A DNA stretch of 64,000 nt, taken from positions 1-64,000 of the IMG/VR virus record IMGVR_UViG_3300032174_000075. One strand, written 5' to 3'. The DNA comes from a virus. The notes under the pieces were generated by a model. That model had not been told where the DNA came from. It searched no databases and worked only from the letters and a program-made list of their open reading frames with translations. Shown here piece by piece: positions 2,977 through 63,021 of this stretch. The first letter of the stretch is position 1; the number at the start of each line of letters is the position of its first letter. The translations under genes and the position numbers were made by a program.

Positions 2977-3948
2977 ATGGCGCAGCACTTCCTTCTAAGC
3001 ACAAAGGCCCGGACGCTCAGTCTGGCAAAGGTGCTGCGCCTTTCGGATCAGGAAGCGTATGACGCCTTCCGGGCGATCCGCTGGGCCGATAACGACGGCA
3101 AACCCTATTGCCCGAGGTGCGGTTGCGTAACGGTCTATGAGTTCGAGACGCGCAAGATTTTCAAGTGCAAGGGATGCCAGTCGCAATTCTCGCTTACGTC
3201 CGGGACGATCTTCGCGAGCCGGAAGCTCAACGTGCGCGACATTCTCGCCGCTATCGCAATCTTCGTGAACGGTGCGAAGGGCTACAGCGCGCTCCAATTG
3301 AGCCGCGATCTCGACGTACAGTACAAGACGGCCTTCGTTCTCGCGCACAAGCTTCGCGAAGTGCTCGGCAAGGAACAGGAAGCGGCGAAGCTCAAGGGCG
3401 ACGTTGAAATAGACTCCGCGTATTTCGGCGGATACGTGAAGCCTGCGAACATCAAAGAGCATCGCCTTGACCGCCGCTTGCTCGAAAACAAATCCGGCAA
3501 GCGCCAGTCCGTTGTCATCGTGCGGGAGCGCAACGGTAACTCGCTTCCGGCAGTCTTCAAGTCGGAAGGCGCGGCGCTGGCCTGGATCAAGAGCCGGATC
3601 AGCCTGGGAACGGTCGTGAACGCCGACGATGCGAGCGGGTGGAACGATCTAGCGTCCAAATACGAAATGAAGCGCATCAACCATCAAGAGGCGTATTCAC
3701 TCGACGGCGCGTGCACCAATCAAGCCGAGTCGTATTTCAGCCGCCTGCGTCGCGCAGAAATGGGTCATCACCATCACGTCAGCGGGCCGTACCTGCTTCG
3801 CTATGCCCAGGAAAGCGCGTGGCGCGAGGATGCCCGTCGCGTCGATAACGGCGCCCAGGTCCGCCGCGTGACGGAACTGGCGTTAAAGCGTGGGCCGTCA
3901 GTGGACTTCAGCGGCTACTATCAGCGCCACGTCAGGGCGGCGGGTTGA
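2977..3948 (+). CDS. IS1595-type (ISXO2-like) DDE transposase, cassette 1
   Basis: A 323-residue protein with the full IS1595 layout. A zinc ribbon (C45, C48, C64, C67; CPRCG...CKGC) is followed by the conserved SLTSGT run and a helical region (YSALQLSRDL). The DDE-type core follows: D146 in DVEIDSAYFGG, D217/D218 in VVNADDAS, and N248/E251 in TNQAESYFSRLRR. All catalytic positions are present, so the enzyme may be active. I could not define convincing terminal inverted repeats. It sits between a divergent DUF6471 gene and a convergent membrane-protein gene, an arrangement repeated at 48.3-50.3 kb. Confidence 0.9.
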   Translation: MAQHFLLSTKARTLSLAKVLRLSDQEAYDAFRAIRWADNDGKPYCPRCGCVTVYEFETRKIFKCKGCQSQFSLTSGTIFASRKLNVRDILAAIAIFVNGAKGYSALQLSRDLDVQYKTAFVLAHKLREVLGKEQEAAKLKGDVEIDSAYFGGYVKPANIKEHRLDRRLLENKSGKRQSVVIVRERNGNSLPAVFKSEGAALAWIKSRISLGTVVNADDASGWNDLASKYEMKRINHQEAYSLDGACTNQAESYFSRLRRAEMGHHHHVSGPYLLRYAQESAWREDARRVDNGAQVRRVTELALKRGPSVDFSGYYQRHVRAAG

Positions 3949-33645: not shown

Positions 33646-36156
33646 ATGACCGTTGGCACTCAATCCGTGACGATCATCGGCAATGCCACAGGGCCTCGCG
33701 GTCCTGCCGGGCCTCAAGCGCCTGCGCCGACCGTTGCGGACGTGGAAACCTTTCGTAAGTCGAGCTTTGGCGATACCAGCGCGATCTTCGTCTCTGGGTA
33801 TTACGGCTTCGGCACGCCCGGGGGTGGGTTGTTCTTGTATGATCTAGCCGCCGGTGCCGACAATGGCGGAACGGTCTTGCATGATTCCGGAGGACGCCCC
33901 TTCGTCCGGCAGAACTACACAGGCTCCATCTATGAGTGGGGCGCGAAATGTGACGGCGTGATGTCCACTGCGCCAGGGGCGATAACCATAGGGTCCAGTA
34001 CATTTACGTCTCCAATTGCGTTGACGCAGGCCGATATCGGAAAGCCGATTGCCATTGTCGGCGCTGGGGCTAGCGATGGAACGCTCGCCACTACGATTTT
34101 GAACGTCGATGTTACTGGGTTAATTCTGACCCTTTCCACTCCCGCAGTTTCGACCGTTCCGACATATCTAGCGCGCGCCGCAGGGGCAATCGTCACGCCT
34201 GGCTCGGCTTATGTGGTCGGCGATCAAAGCGTTATGTCGGACGGCACGACTATCTTTGTTGCTTCCGTTGGTTCGTCCGGAGAGATCACAAAATTCCTTG
34301 TCATGGCGCAGGGTGCCAATATTGCGACGTTACCCGGCACGCTCACGCAAAGCAGCACGACAGGCGCTGGGCATGATTTTACATGCACGCTTTCATACAC
34401 TGCCAGCGGGCAGTTTGCCTATGCAACAAACGACGGCGCAATTCTGAATACCGCGCTGGCTTGGACCGCAGCAAATCCAAATGCGCCCGATGTAAGTATT
34501 CCACGAAAAGTTCTCGCGACCACGACGCCGATCTTGATGCCGTCCGGAGAAGTTCATCTTCGTGGTGGAGGAGGATTGAGTCTAAACAGCAACGCGGGGG
34601 CGGGCATTCTTGCTTTGGCGCCTATGAGCACGGGCGTCGTCTATCGCTCTTCGACGGCCGGAACAGGCGGGGGTGGCGTTCACAGCCTTTGGGTCGATGC
34701 TTACCAGCTCGCCCCATCCGCGACTGAACATGCCGGCGGACGAGATTTCATCTGGGAAAGCGTTTCTTCGCGAAATGGCCTAGTCCAGAACCACTATGCC
34801 CACGGCTCGACCACGGATGCTTGCGCGGGCGTGCTGTATACGCGGCCAGATGCGCGCGTTATCACGCAAACCTTCGCCAGAATCGACAAGGCCGCCCTCT
34901 ACGGGTTCAATTTCCAATCGAACGGAGGACCCGGAACTATCAATTCCCCGGCCTCATCGAACAGTCTGACCTCGGCTATCGAAGATGCGACCTCGGGACT
35001 TCATATCTCCAGCGGCAATATCTTCGGGGCATGGCCTTACGCGCCGCAATACGGGATCAATGTCACTGGGCAGGCAACCCTAATTGGAAATCAAACCGGA
35101 GGCCCGAGGATCGCGGGAGTGCGCGTCGCCGCCGGAAGGGTTCTGTGCCAAAATACTTACGTCCAGTTTGGCGCAACCACATATGCTGGCCCTGGAACTT
35201 ATGGCGTCCTGATCGAGGCTACTGGGTCCCCTTATTTTACCAACGATTGCGTGGTCATGGGGACGACGACCGATAGCGATATCGGCGCTGGCAATGTTAT
35301 CCACCAAAACGGTTCGCCAGGAACTGGGACCGTCGTCCAGAATAATGCCAACGCGACATATTCTTGGCCCCCGGCCTCGAATGCCTCTACCGCTTCGATA
35401 TGGGCTCAGCCGACGACAAATGGCCTAGCCTCGGAAGCGGCAACCCTTTTGTCGCCAGCAATGGGATTCACGCAGTTCAATCTCTATGACACGTTGTTCC
35501 GCGCGATAGGGCCAAGCATCCTTGCGAAGCTTGATTTGCTGTATGTCTTTGTCGCCTTGGACGAGATAACGGCGCTCATCAATATCGCGAACCCAAGTGG
35601 TCCGGTATGCCTGAAGGTCGGGGCGCCAATCTTCACGGCCCTTGGCGGGTATACTGGCAACGGTTCTGGTTATCTCGACAATCAGATCATCACGAGCACG
35701 CTCACCAAGTTCGTGTTGAACGATGCTTCAATGTTCGTTTGGACGGGGGATGATCAGGCCGCGAACAATTCGTATGCTGTAGGGCAAGCCAGTTCTCCGC
35801 GCTCGCGCATCAATCCAAGAACGGCCTCTTTGAAACTTCTTACGCGCTCGCAAAGCGCGACGGACGACTCTACGGTCGGCAACGTAGCAAACAGCATCGG
35901 TATGACTGGTTGGACGAGAAACGCAGCGCCGAGCTACACGCAATACAAGGACGCTGTTGTAGTCGGAACGCCGGCCACAGCTTCTACAGCGCGCGGAAAC
36001 GCCGACATGACATTTCTTTCCGATTCGCTGGCTACTTTCTCGACGCGAAACATTCAAGCATTTGCGTGCGGCGGTTATCTGACGCCCACGGAGGTGACGG
36101 GGCTATTCACTCCGATGCGCGCCTACCTCGTGTCGCAAGGCCAGCCGGTGACCTAA
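33646..36156 (+). CDS. Tailspike: collagen-like stalk, beta-helix and lectin-like C-terminus
   Basis: 836 residues. A short collagen-like GPRGPAGPQAP segment near residue 19 is followed by a domain with YEWGAKCDGV near residue 103, the usual opening of pectate-lyase-type beta-helices. A long Gly/Asn/Thr-rich repetitive stretch then runs to about residue 590. The C-terminal ~230 residues (LGGYTGNGSGYLDNQI, GNADMTFLSDSLATF) resemble a concanavalin-like domain. It is likely a polysaccharide-binding or depolymerising tailspike. No signal peptide, unlike the three genes before it. Confidence 0.75.
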   Translation: MTVGTQSVTIIGNATGPRGPAGPQAPAPTVADVETFRKSSFGDTSAIFVSGYYGFGTPGGGLFLYDLAAGADNGGTVLHDSGGRPFVRQNYTGSIYEWGAKCDGVMSTAPGAITIGSSTFTSPIALTQADIGKPIAIVGAGASDGTLATTILNVDVTGLILTLSTPAVSTVPTYLARAAGAIVTPGSAYVVGDQSVMSDGTTIFVASVGSSGEITKFLVMAQGANIATLPGTLTQSSTTGAGHDFTCTLSYTASGQFAYATNDGAILNTALAWTAANPNAPDVSIPRKVLATTTPILMPSGEVHLRGGGGLSLNSNAGAGILALAPMSTGVVYRSSTAGTGGGGVHSLWVDAYQLAPSATEHAGGRDFIWESVSSRNGLVQNHYAHGSTTDACAGVLYTRPDARVITQTFARIDKAALYGFNFQSNGGPGTINSPASSNSLTSAIEDATSGLHISSGNIFGAWPYAPQYGINVTGQATLIGNQTGGPRIAGVRVAAGRVLCQNTYVQFGATTYAGPGTYGVLIEATGSPYFTNDCVVMGTTTDSDIGAGNVIHQNGSPGTGTVVQNNANATYSWPPASNASTASIWAQPTTNGLASEAATLLSPAMGFTQFNLYDTLFRAIGPSILAKLDLLYVFVALDEITALINIANPSGPVCLKVGAPIFTALGGYTGNGSGYLDNQIITSTLTKFVLNDASMFVWTGDDQAANNSYAVGQASSPRSRINPRTASLKLLTRSQSATDDSTVGNVANSIGMTGWTRNAAPSYTQYKDAVVVGTPATASTARGNADMTFLSDSLATFSTRNIQAFACGGYLTPTEVTGLFTPMRAYLVSQGQPVT

Positions 36157-36518
36157 TGGCGCAGAACAACGCCGACTACAACGGAGTCCTGAGTTGTGTT
36201 CAGGACGACCGAGTCACGCCGATCTACCTGACGGCAGACGGAACGTCAGGCGGGACGCCGCTGCATCTTGAACTGTGGCTGCGCCAATCTCCGGGCGGCC
36301 CAGTCGTGGCGGAGTTTTCCACGGTAGACAATACCCTTGTTATTCTTGAGCCTCCGAACGACAATCAAATATCCTGGCACATTCCGTTCACGACGATGCA
36401 GACACTCGCGGCAAATCTCTATTACGGCGACGTGCTCGCGTTGGTGTCGGATACGTCTAGGCTTGGATACGGCTCGCTCTTGTTTCCAGTAGAGCAAGGA
36501 TCGACGGAAATGGAGTAG
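36156..36518 (+). CDS. Small beta-rich protein, possible fibre chaperone or cap
   Basis: 120 residues from ATG 36156, overlapping the tailspike stop by one base (TAATG). All-beta with alternating hydrophobics (LHLELWLRQSPGGPVVAEFS, LYYGDVLALVSDTSRLGYGS). A short gene coupled to a tailspike is often a folding chaperone or accessory tip protein. Last gene of the rightward tail operon before a hairpin and the reverse-strand operon. Confidence 0.6.
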   Translation: MAQNNADYNGVLSCVQDDRVTPIYLTADGTSGGTPLHLELWLRQSPGGPVVAEFSTVDNTLVILEPPNDNQISWHIPFTTMQTLAANLYYGDVLALVSDTSRLGYGSLLFPVEQGSTEME

Positions 36519-36544
36519 AAGACAGCCTGTCTCTGAGGTGCCGC

Positions 36545-36577
36545 GCCCGGTCACGCTTGAATGCTGGCCGGGCTTTG
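36545..36577 (+). terminator. Probable rho-independent terminator of the tail operon
   Basis: GCCCGG (36545-36550) pairs with CCGGGC (36568-36573), with further partial pairing inside, followed by TTTG. It lies between the convergent ends of the tail operon and the reverse-strand regulator operon. The T-run is short, so efficiency is uncertain. Confidence 0.5.
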
Positions 36578-36592
36578 CATATCCGGGCGATT

Positions 36593-37429
36593 TCAAAAAT
36601 GCATCCTGTCGCTATCTATGGTGTCGATCATCCGCAAGCCGTCGGTGCCGGGTATTTCTTGGTCCAGCGAGATCGGCGCGAATAAAAATGGATGCATTCT
36701 CCGCACACGAGCCAGCGCCTTCGGAACAGCCGTCTTCATTTCACCGGGACGGAGTGAGCCCTCTAAGATCGCAAGGATGATGTCTTGGCAGACATCCGCT
36801 CGAATGAAGTGAGGGACCTGCGCCGGAACCATCCGATTGACCATTGCTAGAAGGCCAGTCGGGTCGTCGCGTTCGCTGTCCAAATATGGATAGCATTTTT
36901 CCCGCGTTGGCGTATGGCGAAGGTCGTTTTCGCGATTGACGAGCTTTCGCCTGTTCCTGATTACCGAGCACAACGACTTGCTTATCCCAAGGCGTTCGCA
37001 TATCTCAGTTGGCCTGATGCCTTGATGGCTGAGCGCTATCACGGCCTTTGTTGTTTCGTTAAATTCCCGCGCGCTATATCGACGAATCTTTATGCCAGTG
37101 TCGGCCAAAATTCGCTTCACTTTATCTATTGAAACCAAAAACTTCTCTCCGACCTTTTCAAGCGTCGCGCCAGACAGATATTCGGCGACAATTTCCGCCG
37201 TCGGAAACGTCGCCCTTTCTTGCTGATAGCGCTTCTTGATTAGATCGAAGCCATGGCGTTCTGTAACGCCGTTGCGAATGGCGACTTGGCGAATTGTCTC
37301 CCGCGAAAGCCCATATACACTCGCTATTGACTGCAACGAATGCTCTCCGCTTTGTAACATCGCAATGATTTCGCAGTTCCTCGCGGTCCTGTCGGCACAT
37401 GGGGGAGGCTTTTTGCGAGCGCCTGTCAC
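36593..37429 (-). CDS. Regulator with three HTH units and a sigma-factor-like C-terminal module
   Basis: 278 residues. Three HTH-like units can be drawn: residues 20-55 (SIASVYGLSRETIRQV, similar to sigma-70 region 4.2), 76-113 (LEKVGEKFLVSIDKVKRIL) and 125-163 (IRPTEICERLGISKSL). Residues ~180-272 contain FIRADVCQDIILAILEG, resembling the 'DL.QE' helix of sigma region 2.1, and ISLDQEIPGTDGLRMIDTID, resembling the 'SLD.PI...LGD.I' segment near the end of sigma region 3. The same module is present in the 576-residue protein of this operon. Last gene of a coupled four-gene unit. Sigma-like function is inferred. Confidence 0.75.
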   Translation of the reverse strand: MTGARKKPPPCADRTARNCEIIAMLQSGEHSLQSIASVYGLSRETIRQVAIRNGVTERHGFDLIKKRYQQERATFPTAEIVAEYLSGATLEKVGEKFLVSIDKVKRILADTGIKIRRYSAREFNETTKAVIALSHQGIRPTEICERLGISKSLCSVIRNRRKLVNRENDLRHTPTREKCYPYLDSERDDPTGLLAMVNRMVPAQVPHFIRADVCQDIILAILEGSLRPGEMKTAVPKALARVRRMHPFLFAPISLDQEIPGTDGLRMIDTIDSDRMHF

Positions 37430-37617
37430 TGCCTCTTCAACTCCTGTATCCTCTCCAGCGCCTCCATGAGGGCGATGATCTGGGGGGATGGTGAGCGTAA
37501 TCCGGTTTCCATTTCTCGCACTCGCTTGTTCGGGCTTTCGAGGCGGAGCTTTTCGCCGAACTGAGTCACGGATAGCCCGAGGCGGAGACGGAGCGCGCGG
37601 ATTTCAAAAGGGGTCAT
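37426..37617 (-). CDS. XRE-family HTH regulator
   Basis: 63 residues forming essentially a single Cro/CI-type HTH: LRLRLGLSVTQFGEKLRLES, then RVREMETGLRSPSPQIIALM. It overlaps both neighbours by four bases (ATGA-type), so it is translated together with them. Likely a DNA-binding partner or autoregulator of this operon. Confidence 0.8.
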   Translation of the reverse strand: MTPFEIRALRLRLGLSVTQFGEKLRLESPNKRVREMETGLRSPSPQIIALMEALERIQELKRQ

Positions 37618-39344
37618 TTGAATGCTGCCTCCGCTAAGGCCATGACCTTCTCCCGATAGGTTTTGGGCCGGCCTTCGTCAGTAGGCGGCAGAACAGTCAT
37701 AAGCGTTGCTTTCTCTGCGTCAAAAACAATTCGCACATTTTTACCCCGCACTCGTATCCATCCCTCGAAAGCGTAGCCGTGATCATCGCCTTTGTGCGCC
37801 GACTTCACACCAGACACTCTTCCTTCTGAGACCGCCGCGCGCATCTCCCGGTTTACAGCCGTTGTCCATTTGATCCCATAGCGCTCTTCTAATCTGGCAT
37901 GATTGTGCAACGTGCCATCGTCTAAATGCCGCAACTGTTTGGGGTCGAGATTCTGGAGAATTTCCTCGGCGTCAAAATAATCTACGTATTGATCATCTTT
38001 CATATGTAGACGGCGCTGTTCGTCGCGCACCTGATGATGGTAGACATCATCGACCTGTGATGGCGGATAGAAGCGGTGGTCAATCGCATCCCAAGCGCGC
38101 CGTTTCTCGTTCATCTGCTCGACGCGCCACTCATCTTGAGAAATCGACGCTTCAAGGCGGTCATATTCATCGCCGTCATTCTCGGCAGTTAATGACAGCG
38201 CGTGACCCGCTTGTTCAAAATTTTCCCTATAGAACTTCGTCACAAACCAACGGACGTTTGTCTGCTTGGCCTTAAGTTCGGCTATCGTGACGCGTCCTTC
38301 TAGCATCGCCAGCATAATCTCTTGTACGATATCGGAGCGCATATGAGGCGGGATAGATTTTGGTATAAGAGAGTTCGCTTCCAAGAGATCGGCGTGCTCG
38401 TCACGAACCTTCGCGATATATGGAAACTGTAGCAGTTCGGCGCCAGCATGATTGTGAAGGCGAAGGACCTTCTTGGGCTGCGGCAATATTTGCCGCCAAG
38501 TATATGACGGCTGAAAGCCCTTATCGAGAGCGTACCTCACGATTGATTGCGGAGAACGCCCAAGCGCATTTGCCGCTAATTCGACGTTCGCATTGTTCTC
38601 ACAGAACCTTTCAAGCGCAGTCTTTTCGGATTGAGTCCACCAAGTTCGCGTACTCATCCAAGCGCCGCCGACGTAGCGGTTTTGCCCTATTTCGTAATTG
38701 TGCGCTCTGGCGTCTCGCTCTGCGAACATGAAAGAGCGAAGCTTTTTACGGGCTGTGCAAGAACTTTTCTTCCCATAGCCGACATGCGCCTCTAAAACTT
38801 TCCCCCACGATGATCCGTTATTTACATCGTTGATCGCAACGATGGTCATAAGAACCTGCTTCCACGTCAGTTTTGTGGCGCGAAACGGCGTGCCTGATGT
38901 AAGTGAGTAACTGTACCCGCATCTCTGGCACTTAAAGAGGTGCCTCCCCGTATCTCTCGTAATATGATAGCTCACCCCATGGGCGCACTCTGGGCATATC
39001 GGCTCTCCGTCGGTTTCTGGCCAACGAAGCTGTTTGAAAAGTTCGCGAGCCGCCCATTCCGAAAGAGGTTCAATCGCCTCTGGAGTGAGGGCCTTTGCGG
39101 CAGGGCTAGTCATGAAAGCGCTGCCGGAAGTGTAGCAAGAGCGGCATACTCCAATGCTGCCGGGAAACTTATTGGCCCCACATTTTTTGCACGTTGAATA
39201 TGCTTCTTCTCGGTCCTCCTTAAGGAGATTTGCTGCGTCGCTTTCATTTGCCGCCAATATGGCGTTGTTCGATATAAACGCGCCGCCGTGTTCCTTGTAG
39301 AGCGGCTTACGGCCTTTGTTGTGTCGCGACCTACGCGTGCCCAT
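37614..39344 (-). CDS. Domesticated IS1595 zinc-ribbon protein with sigma-like module
   Basis: 576 residues. Zinc site 1 is C52/C55/C67/C70. Residues ~90-205 match the N-terminal part of IS1595 transposases: zinc ribbon C117/C120/C139/C142, then YSYSLTSGTPFRATKLTWKQ. The DDE catalytic domain is absent. An HTH/SANT-like segment follows (residues 236-275, VELAANALGRSPQSIVRYAL), then the module shared with the 36593 gene (residues 307-395, PPHMRSDIVQEIMLAMLEG). The C-terminal ~120 residues weakly resemble DUF4258 (FEGWIRVRGKNVRIVFDAEK). A DNA-binding regulator built from a transposase is the best reading. Confidence 0.75.
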   Translation of the reverse strand: MGTRRSRHNKGRKPLYKEHGGAFISNNAILAANESDAANLLKEDREEAYSTCKKCGANKFPGSIGVCRSCYTSGSAFMTSPAAKALTPEAIEPLSEWAARELFKQLRWPETDGEPICPECAHGVSYHITRDTGRHLFKCQRCGYSYSLTSGTPFRATKLTWKQVLMTIVAINDVNNGSSWGKVLEAHVGYGKKSSCTARKKLRSFMFAERDARAHNYEIGQNRYVGGAWMSTRTWWTQSEKTALERFCENNANVELAANALGRSPQSIVRYALDKGFQPSYTWRQILPQPKKVLRLHNHAGAELLQFPYIAKVRDEHADLLEANSLIPKSIPPHMRSDIVQEIMLAMLEGRVTIAELKAKQTNVRWFVTKFYRENFEQAGHALSLTAENDGDEYDRLEASISQDEWRVEQMNEKRRAWDAIDHRFYPPSQVDDVYHHQVRDEQRRLHMKDDQYVDYFDAEEILQNLDPKQLRHLDDGTLHNHARLEERYGIKWTTAVNREMRAAVSEGRVSGVKSAHKGDDHGYAFEGWIRVRGKNVRIVFDAEKATLMTVLPPTDEGRPKTYREKVMALAEAAFK

Positions 39345-39510
39345 GGCGCCCTTCCTCCATGAGCGTCACGTTGTATTTCTCGGTCAGGTCTGAAATCCAG
39401 TCGCGCAGAAGATCGGCGCGCAGCACCCAATCGAGCGATTCCCAGTCGGCCGGAAACTGGACGGAACCTTCGCCATCCGCGAAACTTGCGAGCAATTTGG
39501 GCTTTGTCAT
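39331..39510 (-). CDS. Small leader protein of the reverse-strand regulator operon
   Basis: 59 residues (MTKPKLLASFADGEGSVQFP, then DWVLRADLLRDWISDLTEKY). The reading frame overlaps the start of the 576-residue protein gene by 14 bases, so it is the first of four coupled genes. A GAGGAGTCGAAG leader precedes the ATG. Acidic, mixed alpha/beta, family unknown; I have the impression of similar proteins in rhizobial phages but cannot name one. Confidence 0.6.
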   Translation of the reverse strand: MTKPKLLASFADGEGSVQFPADWESLDWVLRADLLRDWISDLTEKYNVTLMEEGRHGHA

Positions 39511-39879
39511 CTTCGACTCCTCGCCCTCGTTAGGGCTGTAGCGGCGCGGGTGGTGCGCCTATCGACGGCTAGGATTGAGCCACAGCCCCGTTGACAGGTC
39601 AAGGCTGAAAGCGCACATTTCCGCTCGGGAACGCCGCCGCTACAGCTAGGCGTGGCTTGGCCGGGAGAGACGGCTGTGTCGCTGCATCGGCGAGCCTTTG
39701 CCTTAACGGCAATCCTTCACGGAGGGTTGAAGCCTATCGTAACAGACGGCTTGCGCAAAGGCTCACCGCTGCAACGATAATCGGAGACGGGCATGCGCGA
39801 GAAAACTTGCATCGGCGACGGCGGCTCTTCGTTCGTCGGCGCTGGCAACTCCGCCTAACCACCAAGGAGAACATCCCTC
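39511..39879. other. 369-bp intergenic region with long inverted repeats
   Basis: No gene seen. A perfect 12-bp inverted repeat joins 39535-39546 (gctgtagcggcg) and 39635-39646. A 21-bp imperfect pair joins 39681-39701 and 39755-39775 (18 of 21 positions complementary), with smaller hairpins between. A TTGACA at 39591 lies within TTGACAGGTCAA and could be the -35 of a rightward promoter (spacer 17, CACATT) for the lysis genes. It may hold a structured RNA or binding sites between the reverse-strand operon and the holin. Confidence 0.4.
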
Positions 39880-40206
39880 ATGGCCGCGCCCTCCGCTCCG
39901 GTTATCGTCGCCACGAAGTCAGCGTGGCTTTCAAAGACGAATTGGGTTGCTGGCCTGACAGGTCTTGGAGCGATCGTCACGCAGTTCACGCCACTATTGC
40001 CGCCAGAGTGGCAAGGGAAGGCGACGGCCTTTGTCGCGCTGCTTGGTGCGGTCGGGGTGTGGATCACAAGGACGTTTTTCACTACCAGTCTCACGCCATC
40101 ATCTACGGCTGACCTTCCTTCCGCTGCCAATGCCATCCGAGCCTCTGGCGCATCCGAGGCGCAGGTTGTGGACGCCTTGAACGCCGCTCAGATTACCGCG
40201 AAATAG
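39880..40206 (+). CDS. Putative holin
   Basis: 108 residues with two hydrophobic helices at about 20-40 (WVAGLTGLGAIVTQFTPLLP) and 47-66 (ATAFVALLGAVGVWITRTFF), a short loop between them, and a soluble Ala/Ser-rich tail. This topology and the ACCAAGGAGAACATCCCTC leader fit a class II-type holin that permeabilises the inner membrane at lysis. It starts a run of small membrane proteins. No endolysin lies next to it. Confidence 0.7.
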   Translation: MAAPSAPVIVATKSAWLSKTNWVAGLTGLGAIVTQFTPLLPPEWQGKATAFVALLGAVGVWITRTFFTTSLTPSSTADLPSAANAIRASGASEAQVVDALNAAQITAK

Positions 40207-40216
40207 GAGTGCTATC

Positions 40217-40426
40217 GTGACTGCGTGGTTTCTGATAATGAGCATACTCATTTACTCAGGCGATGATGGATCTTGGCATAGACAATACCAAGTCCGGGAT
40301 CAGGCCTTTCCATCTCAGGAAGAATGCGAAGTCGCGCGTTATCACAGGACGCACAACGACTATTTCGACGGCGATCTACAAACCGCTTGCGTCGAAGTGA
40401 CACTGCTTCCGAAGATCGACAGATAG
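40217..40426 (+). CDS. Small protein with N-terminal hydrophobic segment
   Basis: 69 residues from GTG. A short hydrophobic start (TAWFLIMSILIYSG) is followed by a soluble part with two cysteines (EECEVARYH, LQTACVEV), consistent with an exported or membrane-attached lysis-region protein. Family unknown. Confidence 0.5.
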   Translation: MTAWFLIMSILIYSGDDGSWHRQYQVRDQAFPSQEECEVARYHRTHNDYFDGDLQTACVEVTLLPKIDR

Positions 40427-47980: not shown

Positions 47981-48175
47981 ATGACAATTTTTCGAGTGAG
48001 GTTCCAAGTGCAAGGCGGCCATGTGCATTGTCGCCTGTTCGCCGCTGCGCAGCGTGGCGTGACGTTCGCCAAGTGCGGCGACTTCGTCGTGCGCAAAGGC
48101 GCGGAGTTTCGTGACTTTGTGGCGGCTTTCGAGAATGCTGATTCGGAACTATGCACTTGGGAAACCCAAGCCTAG
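47981..48175 (+). CDS. Small beta-rich hypothetical protein
   Basis: 64 residues, 11 bases after the previous stop. Alternating strands (IFRVRFQVQGGHVHCRLFAA, GVTFAKCGDFVVRKGAEF). Similar small proteins occur in rhizobial prophages; function unknown. Confidence 0.5.
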   Translation: MTIFRVRFQVQGGHVHCRLFAAAQRGVTFAKCGDFVVRKGAEFRDFVAAFENADSELCTWETQA

Positions 48176-49061: not shown

Positions 49062-49988
49062 TCATGCAGCCCGCTTCCGAATTGGGTCCTGATACATCAA
49101 CCGTGCGCCTGCGCTAAGTGCAATCGCCTTCATGGTTCGCTCCGCGTCCGAACTCTTGCGCTCGTTCCAGCGATAGGAGAACTCGTTGCAGTAGCGGTGC
49201 AGGTGGGTCTTGCTGACGCTGTGGAATGAGCCGGTGATACCGCGCTTAAGCAGCGCGAAATAAGACTCCGCATCGTTTGTCGAGACGCCGTCGCGGGCAT
49301 ACTCGAACTTCGCATGATTGACCGTCTCGTGGCCGCCCTCGAACCACTTGCCCACGCCACGATAAGAAATGAGCTGGTCGGTCTGGATTTGCGAAGACGG
49401 ATGCACATTGTTGCGGATCGCGTCTTGCAACGTCTTGGCGGTGATATTCGCAATCGGCCAAGAGCGGACGCGCCCGCCACGCTCGACCAATGCGACGACG
49501 GGAGCCTTATCGGTCCCGCGACCTTCCTTGGACTTCTTGCCGCTATGTTTGCGCGGCTTGCCGCCGACATAGGTTTCATCCGCGACCACGATGCCTTGAA
49601 GGAGCCCCTTCAATGGATTTTGCGCCATCGCGTGCCGGATGCGGTGGTTCAAGTGCCACGCGGTGCGATAGGAACCGAGGCCAAGCTGGCGCTGCAATTG
49701 AAGGGCGCTTACGCCTTTCTTTGAAGAACACATGATCGAGAAAGCCATGAGCCAAATCCTGATCGGAAGGTGCGAGGCTTCCATGATCGTGTTCACGGTG
49801 ACGCTGAATTGCTGCGCGCAGCCATTGTTGCATTTCCAAACGCCGGGACGATGCTTCTTGCCCTTGAATTTTGTGTGGCCTTCGACGCAGCCGCAATGCG
49901 GACAAACCGGACCCTTCGGCCAGACGATGCCCTCTAGCGTTTCGCGGGCTTGATCTTCGGTCATTTTGGACAGTTCGGAGAGGTTCAT
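49062..49988 (-). CDS. IS1595-type DDE transposase, cassette 2
   Basis: 308 residues from ATG 49988; a start at 50027 is less likely because it overlaps the promoter dyad. Zinc ribbon C29/C32/C53/C57 (CPHCG...CNNGC). Catalytic positions: D137 in VVADETYVGGKPRK, D204 in IQTDQLISYR, and N238/E241 in STNDAESYFALLKRG. The intact YVGG.PRKH and SYFALLKRGI motifs are typical of the ISNwi1/ISXO2 branch. Divergent from a small HTH gene and convergent with a membrane protein gene. Confidence 0.9.
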   Translation of the reverse strand: MNLSELSKMTEDQARETLEGIVWPKGPVCPHCGCVEGHTKFKGKKHRPGVWKCNNGCAQQFSVTVNTIMEASHLPIRIWLMAFSIMCSSKKGVSALQLQRQLGLGSYRTAWHLNHRIRHAMAQNPLKGLLQGIVVADETYVGGKPRKHSGKKSKEGRGTDKAPVVALVERGGRVRSWPIANITAKTLQDAIRNNVHPSSQIQTDQLISYRGVGKWFEGGHETVNHAKFEYARDGVSTNDAESYFALLKRGITGSFHSVSKTHLHRYCNEFSYRWNERKSSDAERTMKAIALSAGARLMYQDPIRKRAA

Positions 49989-50056
49989 CGGTTCGGCCCT
50001 TGATCGTGTATGCAGTATGTAATACATTCGAAGCCGTTGTCAAGCGGAGTGCATAC
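49989..50056. promoter_or_regulatory. Divergent promoter/operator of transposase cassette 2
   Basis: Leftward promoter: TTGACA (50043-50038), 18-bp spacer, CATACT (50019-50014). The dyad GTATGTAATAC (50015-50025) lies between them, and TACATTCG (50023-50030) overlaps it. An outer inverted repeat TGTATGCA ... TGCATACA brackets the whole segment. GTAT-NN-AATAC and TACATTCG are shared with cassette 1. The HTH protein encoded at 50057 is the natural candidate to bind here. Confidence 0.55.
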
Positions 50057-52318: not shown

Positions 52319-52683
52319 ATGCCGGTTTGCGAAGTGCATAGTTCCGTCCGAAGAAACCCTGCGCCGAATGTCCATGGCGTCGCGATGTAAAGCCTGGCCG
52401 CTTTCCGCCAGAGAGATACCGCGCCTTGGCATGCACTGCTGAGGATATGAGCAGCCACATCTTCGCGTGTCACAAGAGCGCGGACGACAAGCCTACCGCC
52501 TGCGCAGGATTTATCCTTCGTGGCGCGGATCACAATTTGTCCTTGCGCCTCGCATATTGCCATGGCGAAGTGGGCGAGATATCGGATGGTGGCTATCCGC
52601 TTTTCGAGAACTATCGGCAGATGGCACATGCGAACGGGGTGAAGCCTAATGACCCCGCGCTTAGAAACTGCAGGGATCGTTAG
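52319..52683 (+). CDS. DUF6283-like Cys-rich protein, apparently frameshifted near its start
   Basis: From 52342 the +1-phase frame reads a convincing DUF6283 protein: PCAECPWRRDVKPGRFPPER, then IFACHKSADD and CAGFILRG. That frame has no ATG, GTG or TTG between the upstream stop (TAG 52339) and the conserved CAECPW. An ATG at 52319 opens a different frame that ends soon after. A heptamer A AAC CCT (52354-52360) sits where a -1 slip would join the two. This is either programmed frameshifting, a small deletion or a sequencing error. A short version from TTG 52426 would lack the first Cys pair. Confidence 0.6.
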
Positions 52684-56976: not shown

Positions 56977-57285
56977 TTATTTCGCCGTTGCGGCGAAAAG
57001 CTTCTTCGGGTCCAGGCATAGCGCCTTTGCGAAGGCGAATACGTCGGAAAGCAGCACACGCTGGCGCCCAAGCTCGATATTGGCGATGGAGCCGCGAGAG
57101 TACCCGAGCCTGTCGGCCAATTCCTGTTGCGAAAGCTCCATGTCGAGACGCGCTTCCCGTACCGCAGCCCCGAACAGAACATAGGGCCGCTCGCATTGCA
57201 ATACCTCGCGTGTTACATTGACGACGCGGTAGACCCTGCGCTGGCCGGAGACTGTCCGCTTGGTTTTGACCCGCCTCGGGCTCAT
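56977..57285 (-). CDS. XRE-family HTH regulator
   Basis: 102 residues from ATG 57285, in an ATGA overlap with the upstream gene. The HTH is canonical: AAVREARLDMELSQQELADR, LGYSRGSIANIELGRQRVLL. The N-terminal ~35 residues are basic and possibly strand-forming. A repressor or activator within the early operon; its target is unknown. Confidence 0.8.
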   Translation of the reverse strand: MSPRRVKTKRTVSGQRRVYRVVNVTREVLQCERPYVLFGAAVREARLDMELSQQELADRLGYSRGSIANIELGRQRVLLSDVFAFAKALCLDPKKLFAATAK

Positions 57286-57539
57286 CCGCCCCTCGCCTCC
57301 GCTATGGCCTCTTGCCATGCTGTATCGGATGGAGTGTTGTCGGAGATGGCGGCGAGGAGTTGATCAAGCTGTTCCTGGACCGCAGTTATGCCGCACAGAG
57401 CTTGTGCATTCTGCATCGCAGAGACATACGTTGCCGTTGCATCCTTGACCATCCTGCGCGCGCGGCGTTCTGCATCCGCTTGGTCATCGCTTATGCCGGA
57501 GTGGTGGGTGGAATCGTGGTAGAGGGGTATGGCACTCAT
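57282..57539 (-). CDS. Hypothetical phage protein
   Basis: 85 residues, helical (DATATYVSAMQNAQALCGIT, EQLDQLLAAISDNTPSDTAW). Four-base overlaps on both sides with neighbouring early genes. Unassigned. Confidence 0.5.
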   Translation of the reverse strand: MSAIPLYHDSTHHSGISDDQADAERRARRMVKDATATYVSAMQNAQALCGITAVQEQLDQLLAAISDNTPSDTAWQEAIAEARGG

Positions 57540-62340: not shown

Positions 62341-63021
62341 CTAATCAGTCCAACTGACCGTACCGACAGGCGTTGTCCCGTTCGCTTCGTGCTGCGCCAT
62401 TTCTTCGATGTAGGCGAGCGCCCAATCATCCGGGATCGCGCCGTAGTTCTGCTGCGGCCAGCCAGGATGCGACATGTCGTGGATCAAAGAGGCCGCTCCA
62501 GCAAAACCGTATTTGTCTTTCAGCTTCCATCCGGCGGCACCAGCCATGTTCACGAGATGGCCAGCCGTGCACATTGGCGTGTTGCAGATATTCGGCTCCG
62601 GCGTCGGGCGTTCTGGCCCGAAGGTCGATTGCTTGAATGCCCGCTTCTTCGCTTGAATGTCAGCCAGAAGATGCGTGTAGGGTTTTTCGAGGACAGGGAT
62701 ATCTCCGAACGCCGCTCTCAGGGCGCTCGGGGTCCAGCCCGCCGCGATCAGGGCGCTCGGGGTCCAGCCCGCCGCTCTCAGGGCGCTCGGGGTCCAGCCC
62801 GCCGCTCTCAGGGCGCTCGGGGTCCAGCCCGCCGCTCTCAGGGCGCTCGGGGTCCAGCCCGCCGCGATCAGGGCGCTCGGGGTCCAGCCCGCCGCGATCA
62901 GGGCGCTCGGGGTCCAGCCCGCCGCTCTCAGGGCGCTCGGGGTCCAGCCCGCCGCGATCAGGGCGGAGAATTGGCGGCTCGCCATCAAAGCCAATTCGTG
63001 CCGTGTAAATTCCTTCGCCAT
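62341..63021 (-). CDS. Phage protein with eight perfect 10-residue repeats
   Basis: 226 residues from ATG 63021, preferred because AGAGAGGA lies six bases upstream. After AKEFTRHELALMASRQFSAL come eight copies of AAGWTPSAL[R/I], encoded by 30-bp units that differ only in the last codon. The C-terminal ~125 residues form a separate domain (LEKPYTHLLADIQAKKRAFK, NICNTPMCTAGHLVNMAGAA, QQNYGAIPDDWALAYIEEMA) shared with phage proteins I recall without function. The frame also continues upstream into the neighbouring gene because of a ten-C run. Confidence 0.75.
   Translation of the reverse strand: MAKEFTRHELALMASRQFSALIAAGWTPSALRAAGWTPSALIAAGWTPSALIAAGWTPSALRAAGWTPSALRAAGWTPSALRAAGWTPSALIAAGWTPSALRAAFGDIPVLEKPYTHLLADIQAKKRAFKQSTFGPERPTPEPNICNTPMCTAGHLVNMAGAAGWKLKDKYGFAGAASLIHDMSHPGWPQQNYGAIPDDWALAYIEEMAQHEANGTTPVGTVSWTD
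62711..62950. repeat. Eight tandem 30-bp repeats
   Basis: Units start at 62711, 62741, 62771, 62801, 62831, 62861, 62891 and 62921. All share the same 26 bases; only four (tctc or gatc, positions 6-9 of each unit) vary, in the order t-g-t-t-t-g-g-t, with a partial ninth (gatc) at 62951. They encode the AAGWTPSAL[R/I] repeats on the minus strand and leave all frames open. Confidence 0.97.

Follow-up and report, generated by a model that had tools for sequence, protein, structure and literature searches.

Four consecutive genes on the minus strand interrupt the rightward late genes of the virus record IMGVR_UViG_3300032174_000075, and two of them encode large proteins that end in, or contain, the same unusual module. 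The question raised by this locus is whether the block belongs to the late program of the phage or was added to it, and what its proteins may do. The window analyzed here, a stretch of 64,000 nucleotides, is part of the 74,820-base viral record.

Layout and origin of the cassette

The initial annotation described four overlapping minus-strand genes forming a translationally coupled operon. The ORF listing confirms all four, with overlaps of 14, 4, and 4 bases, and supports a coupled operon.

39331-39510, minus strand: gene 1, 59 aa, open reading frame with a ribosome-binding site
37614-39344, minus strand: gene 2, 576 aa, characterized by Pfam, tblastn, alignment, and a predicted model
37426-37617, minus strand: gene 3, 63 aa, XRE/HTH_3 protein (HTH_3, E 4.4e-5)
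36593-37429, minus strand: gene 4, 278 aa, GTG start, three tandem HTHs and a C-terminal module
36545-36573, no strand assigned: hairpin (z -2.55) between the convergent tail-side gene and gene 4
39679-39777, no strand assigned: imperfect 23-base inverted repeat (arms 39679-39701 and 39755-39777, 87% complementary, 53 bases apart)

As read from the sequence, a Shine-Dalgarno-like stretch precedes every start (GGAG, GGAGGAAGG, GGAGG, and AGGAG for the four genes). The 576-codon open frame of gene 2 lies in DNA of 52% GC and is therefore not due to chance. The XRE assignment of gene 3 also holds, as Pfam HTH_3 scores 23.9 bits against a cut-off of 23, and the 59-aa product of gene 1 has no significant family match.

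The cassette had been placed between the last tail gene and the holin. Its flanks are indeed rightward tail-side and holin-like genes, but one short rightward gene was missed (36156-36518, 120 aa), which follows the gene ending at 36156 and has its stop at 36518. The cassette is thus convergent with this gene, and the hairpin between them is a possible two-way terminator. On the other side, a stretch of ~370 bases separates gene 1 from the rightward lysis-like genes, beginning with a holin-like gene at 39880. Its 108-aa product matches no PHROG family and is called holin-like from the look of the protein. The inverted repeat in this intergenic stretch, whose minus-strand RNA gives a fold z of -2.96, is absent from the other viral contigs searched and is a possible control site. 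An Rfam search of 36000-40300 returned nothing, and promoter-like sites for the cassette occur at chance level.

This layout would also fit an ordinary lysogeny or superinfection-immunity operon, in which the XRE and HTH proteins would be plain repressors and the module would serve for oligomerization only. The XRE gene, the multiple HTHs, the strand opposite to the late genes, and the inverted repeat upstream are all consistent with such an operon. We consider it quite unlikely, because the phage has another XRE gene elsewhere (56977-57318) and the sigma-like finger described below is kept in unrelated architectures.

The terminase and portal are nearest to those of DUF1073-portal myoviruses of Yersinia, Pantoea, Klebsiella, and Shewanella (46-50% identity). 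A relative of the baseplate gene of the window is carried by 19 viral contigs, and both the module and gene 2 are absent from all 19, most of which are fragments. The longest of these contigs, G395 at 51.8 kb, shares the gene order of window 5.7-30.8 kb, which spans terminase through tail. It lacks the cassette, its rightward tail genes passing unbroken into the lysis genes. This continuous run speaks against a core late-gene switch, one of the roles first suggested for the block, and the absence of the cassette from a syntenic relative suggests that it is probably an addition in a variable region. Moreover, the GC content is 52-53% in genes 2 and 4, compared to about 57-61% around them. An opposite-strand block of differing composition that is missing from a syntenic relative has the traits of a moron, and the cassette is most likely an acquired, moron-like element among the late genes of a temperate-type myovirus.

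The initial annotation also treated the four genes as one system, which would be expected to occur elsewhere. Searches of 50,697 phage records, scans of viral contigs, and 385 sampled genomes did not recover all four together. As far as tested, the four-gene set is unique to this record, the outcome that the initial annotation had named as refuting, while its module recurs in other phages. In Ochrobactrum phage POI1126 and two related contigs, the module gene is preceded, at a distance of a few genes, by a small XRE-like gene, in another arrangement. PADLOC gave weak HTH matches only.

Several further features lie outside the cassette. Beyond the window (record 73657-74379, plus strand; L088:9657-10379) is a gene whose 240-aa product has a NusG domain at its N-terminus (PF02357, 32.3 bits) and is possibly a paralogue of a phage or host transcription elongation factor. 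Within a leftward gene for 303 aa, a 30-base unit is repeated in tandem about twelve times (window 62650-63009). The left end has an MgtC/DUF4010 gene with the look of host DNA.

Domain composition of genes 2 and 4

Gene 2 combines part of a transposase with the module shared with gene 4.

Residues 52-71: CxxC-CxxC ribbon, preceding the IS1595 zinc ribbon
Residues 95-144: IS1595 zinc ribbon (PF12760)
Residues about 61-227: DNA-binding half of an IS1595 transposase (zinc ribbon and following helices)
Residues about 230-280: homeodomain/Myb-like HTH (predicted model)
Residues about 318-415 (38100-38393, minus strand): sigma-2-like module
Residues about 495-555: C-terminal domain, predicted helix and four strands (low confidence)

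The IS1595 zinc ribbon noted earlier is borne out by Pfam (42.0 bits over a cut-off of 25.4). Residues 61-227 align with IS1595 transposases as far as the start of the DDE domain and have 30% identity to a transposase copy in the same window (2977-3948), whereas the DDE catalytic domain (PF12762) is absent from gene 2; all three DDE domains of the record lie elsewhere. The model of residues about 230-280 resembles Tc3 transposase and others (Z about 5). In the module, one helix keeps D-I-V-Q-E and the finger motif is degenerate. The C-terminal domain has no match in Pfam or phages, and a toxin reading, based on its appearance by eye, was dropped for this reason. The protein as a whole was not found in the 50,697 phage records, a search of viral contigs with exact peptides yielded one doubtful short match, and a class-wide genome search returned matches to the transposase half only. 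No relatives beyond the transposase half and the module were found in these phage, viral-contig, and genome searches.

The record has three intact but diverged IS1595-family transposase genes.

Window 2977-3948, plus strand: IS1595-family transposase gene
Window 49062-50027, minus strand: IS1595-family transposase gene
Record 70573-71463, minus strand: IS1595-family transposase gene

Two of the three are near the two ends of the record, and none has obvious terminal inverted repeats. A pair of 23-base inverted repeats (91%; window 48144-48166 and 52324-52346, 4.2 kb apart) lies around the internal copy. Neither a tyrosine integrase (PF00589) nor a resolvase-type recombinase (PF00239) was found in the record, and an IS1595-type transposase could serve phage integration.

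Gene 4 has a simpler composition.

Residues 11-52, 57-110, and 120-171: three tandem HTHs (AlphaFold; several HTHs also by Pfam)
Residues 193-278 and stop (36593-36853, minus strand; domain about 190-278): module, finger ISLDQEIPGTDGLRMIDTIDSDRMHF

AlphaFold predicts three confident helices in the module (190-200, 207-223, and 228-245), followed by coil. Similar HTH arrays occur in phage HNH/homing endonucleases and in Cbp1, and the third HTH of gene 4 resembles LuxR/sigma-4 at Z 6-7, tied with generic HTHs. Residues 163-278 (116 aa) match positions 109-219 of the 219 positions of PHROG 24127 (E 2.1e-9). The N-terminal half of that family is not matched, since the match begins at profile position 109 and the triple HTH lies outside it.

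The shared module and its possible relation to sigma factors

The module common to the 576-aa and 278-aa proteins is detected by tblastn within the record (E 2e-7) and by alignment. It corresponds to the C-terminal domain of PHROG 24127, which other phages fuse to unrelated DNA-binding arrays, and carries the tail motif S[LI]DxPIxGTDGLxxxDtixSD. Matches by tblastn include Brevundimonas phages Leszy and Delta and Ochrobactrum phage POI1126. A pattern scan for the finger motif identified 25 loci in viral contigs and eight in genomes (half of them Brucella), a set that includes true sigma factors and PHROG 37022 proteins having the finger alone in common. Because these loci came via the finger motif, a second scan used the helical part of the module alone. 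It recovered three new proteins, all three with SLDAP[IML] at the right place, which argues that the helical part and the finger form one domain. Among 385 sampled genomes of the class, the module occurs solely in the Brucella centre genome.

At least five kinds of N-terminal array are joined to the module: HTH arrays, NUMOD3-like repeats (assigned by eye and by weak homing-endonuclease matches), basic YRxxNPEK repeats, Sf6-terminase-like repeats, and the IS1595 half. A constant module on changing DNA-binding arrays makes a conserved partner probable. In one locus (L041), the terminase gene follows the module gene at a distance of about 2.7 kb, a position usual for late activators. In three phages, HNH-type endonuclease-like genes, recognized by eye, lie one or two genes upstream of module genes.

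L040, 6616-7110: HNH-type gene near the module gene
L042, 2820-3203: HNH-type gene near the module gene
L053, 6611-7246: HNH-type gene near the module gene

Such neighbors raise the alternative that the module is unrelated to sigma and that the proteins target DNA for homing or transposition elements, or for immobile remnants of them, with the module serving dimerization or strand handling. For the N-terminal arrays, the matches are to the DNA-binding parts of HNH/homing endonucleases (phrog_59, 7168, 655, and 20467) and, in gene 2, to the IS1595 transposase. On a Streptomyces plasmid, a relative of the HTH array lies between endonuclease VII and integrase genes. We nevertheless regard this alternative as rather unlikely, as the module has no nuclease or DDE motif and its finger also occurs in true sigma factors, where it joins region 2 to region 4.

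A sigma-region-2-like module had been claimed for both proteins from the outset. The shared module is real and its finger motif is clear, but the helical part is weak, and Pfam Sigma70_r2 (PF04542) has no match in gene 2 or gene 4 at E up to 10. In true phage sigma factors (L027 type), the sequence equivalent to the tail of the module links region 2 to region 4. Gene 4 carries the sigma finger motif common to these proteins and to region 3.2 of RpoD/RpoH, a match that is partly selected because the true-sigma loci came from a finger-derived pattern. The L027-type proteins themselves reach 25.6 bits for Sigma70_r2 (cut-off 24), and beyond the linker they match region 4 more weakly. Two profile comparisons point in the same direction without being decisive. 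The helical part and ECF region 2 align collinearly over 47 columns (P 0.007, 0 of 60 column shuffles), and the full module aligns with RpoD/RpoH proteins at region 3.2 (P 0.007, 0 of 60 shuffles). At the position of D-L-x-Q-E in sigma region 2.2, which is a beta-prime contact, gene 2 has D-I-V-Q-E and gene 4 D-V-C-Q-D.

The structural model of gene 2 is poor (pLDDT 55), and its residues 305-381 align with region 2 of Mycobacterium tuberculosis sigma-H at Z 4.3, which is within noise (rmsd 4.2, 72 residues). The module profile found no sigma factor in the PDB (best match E 0.92), Foldseek searches of the PDB with the models of genes 2 and 4 gave nothing at E 0.001 or better, and the VIA-align rows for gene 4 were taken up by the third HTH, not the module. 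With a module HMM, two of 16 sigma factors beat their own shuffles. An apparent ranking of sigma factors above random ORFs by this HMM was discarded, since the decoys were unmatched and matched shuffles gave a weak result.

The finger is also found in PHROG 37022, a family listed as of unknown function. Its proteins (one of 133 aa) align with L027 over 72 columns (E 5e-11) and show no region 4 match, and the helical parts of the module and PHROG 37022 gave no alignment. Loci of this type (L019, L020, L022, L024, L025, L029, L035, and L036) have a sigma-region-2-like part and the finger. In the cassette proteins, no region 4 HTH follows the module: the HTHs are N-terminal, and gene 4 ends at the finger. 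At the sequence level, the module is sigma-like and not a member of the sigma-70 family, and we infer, with moderate support, that it is remotely descended from sigma.

Proposed role and comparison with known systems

Our main reading, with a probability of about 0.45, is that the locus is an acquired, mobile regulatory cassette in which genes 2 and 4 would bring RNA polymerase to DNA sites via a mimic of sigma region 2 and finger, most likely activating transcription. The N-terminal arrays (the IS1595 half and Myb-like HTH in gene 2, the three HTHs in gene 4) would pick the DNA site, and the common module, which resembles sigma region 2 and finger with no region 4, would dock on the beta-prime clamp of the host core RNA polymerase, which the finger makes the most likely partner. 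The two proteins may thereby act like a sigma factor whose upstream DNA-recognition part has been shifted to the N-terminus, with particular phage or cassette promoters as their most likely targets. The XRE protein of gene 3 probably autoregulates the operon.

Phage-encoded polymerase inhibitors exist, and the module could instead dock on RNA polymerase and inhibit it, either by competing with host sigma or by blocking initiation at selected sites, for host takeover or phage exclusion. The same data bear on activator and inhibitor alike, and a cassette opposite to the late strand and missing from a syntenic relative is as expected for accessory genes. Inhibition is nonetheless unlikely, as a general inhibitor would need no DNA-binding arrays and no relation to known polymerase inhibitors is seen. 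Activation is our first choice because site-specific DNA-binding arrays are kept throughout the family.

A broader and more tentative proposal is that the module defines a phage pseudo-sigma family of reversed domain order, in which region 2 and finger stand behind swappable arrays from homing endonucleases, terminases, and transposases. If so, swapping the array would address new promoters or sites, and phages would have made initiation factors from a minimal core-binding piece of sigma and the DNA-binding arrays of selfish elements. PHROG 24127, now of unknown function, would also gain one. The literature searched describes no phage protein with such an architecture.

Prophage induction modules that pair an XRE regulator with a small orphan protein encoded by a divergent gene (PMC10432266) resemble the cassette, which likewise has an XRE gene and a small orphan protein. 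By analogy, the transcription factors could control the 59-aa protein, which would disable a lysis repressor. This is very improbable, as the 59-aa gene is the first of the same operon rather than divergent, and the cassette adds two large sigma-mimic-like proteins.

IS1595 transposases have the zinc ribbon and following helices in common with residues 61-227 of gene 2, which lacks their DDE domain. PHROG 24127 proteins (POI1126 gp58 and Brucella prophages, with relatives in Leszy and Delta) have the same C-terminal module with a SLDxPIxGTDGLxxxDxxxSDxxHF tail, but differ in their N-terminal arrays, with no IS1595 part and no four-gene reverse operon. The L027-type ECF-like phage sigma factors and PHROG 37022 have a region 2-4 linker and finger nearly identical to those of the module. 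However, L027 has a Pfam region 2 and a C-terminal region 4, whereas the module of the window has no detectable Pfam region 2 and is followed by no region 4. A further parallel, drawn from described role only, is T4 gp55, a region-2-only sigma that drives late genes while gp33 replaces region 4 (PMC2988020). In both cases, the upstream part would be supplied by other means, but in the cassette proteins a DNA-binding array is fused N-terminally. A review of T4 late transcription asks why no fused late-transcription sigma exists (PMC2988020); if our reading is right, genes 2 and 4 would be a natural fused late-type sigma with a different DNA-binding part.
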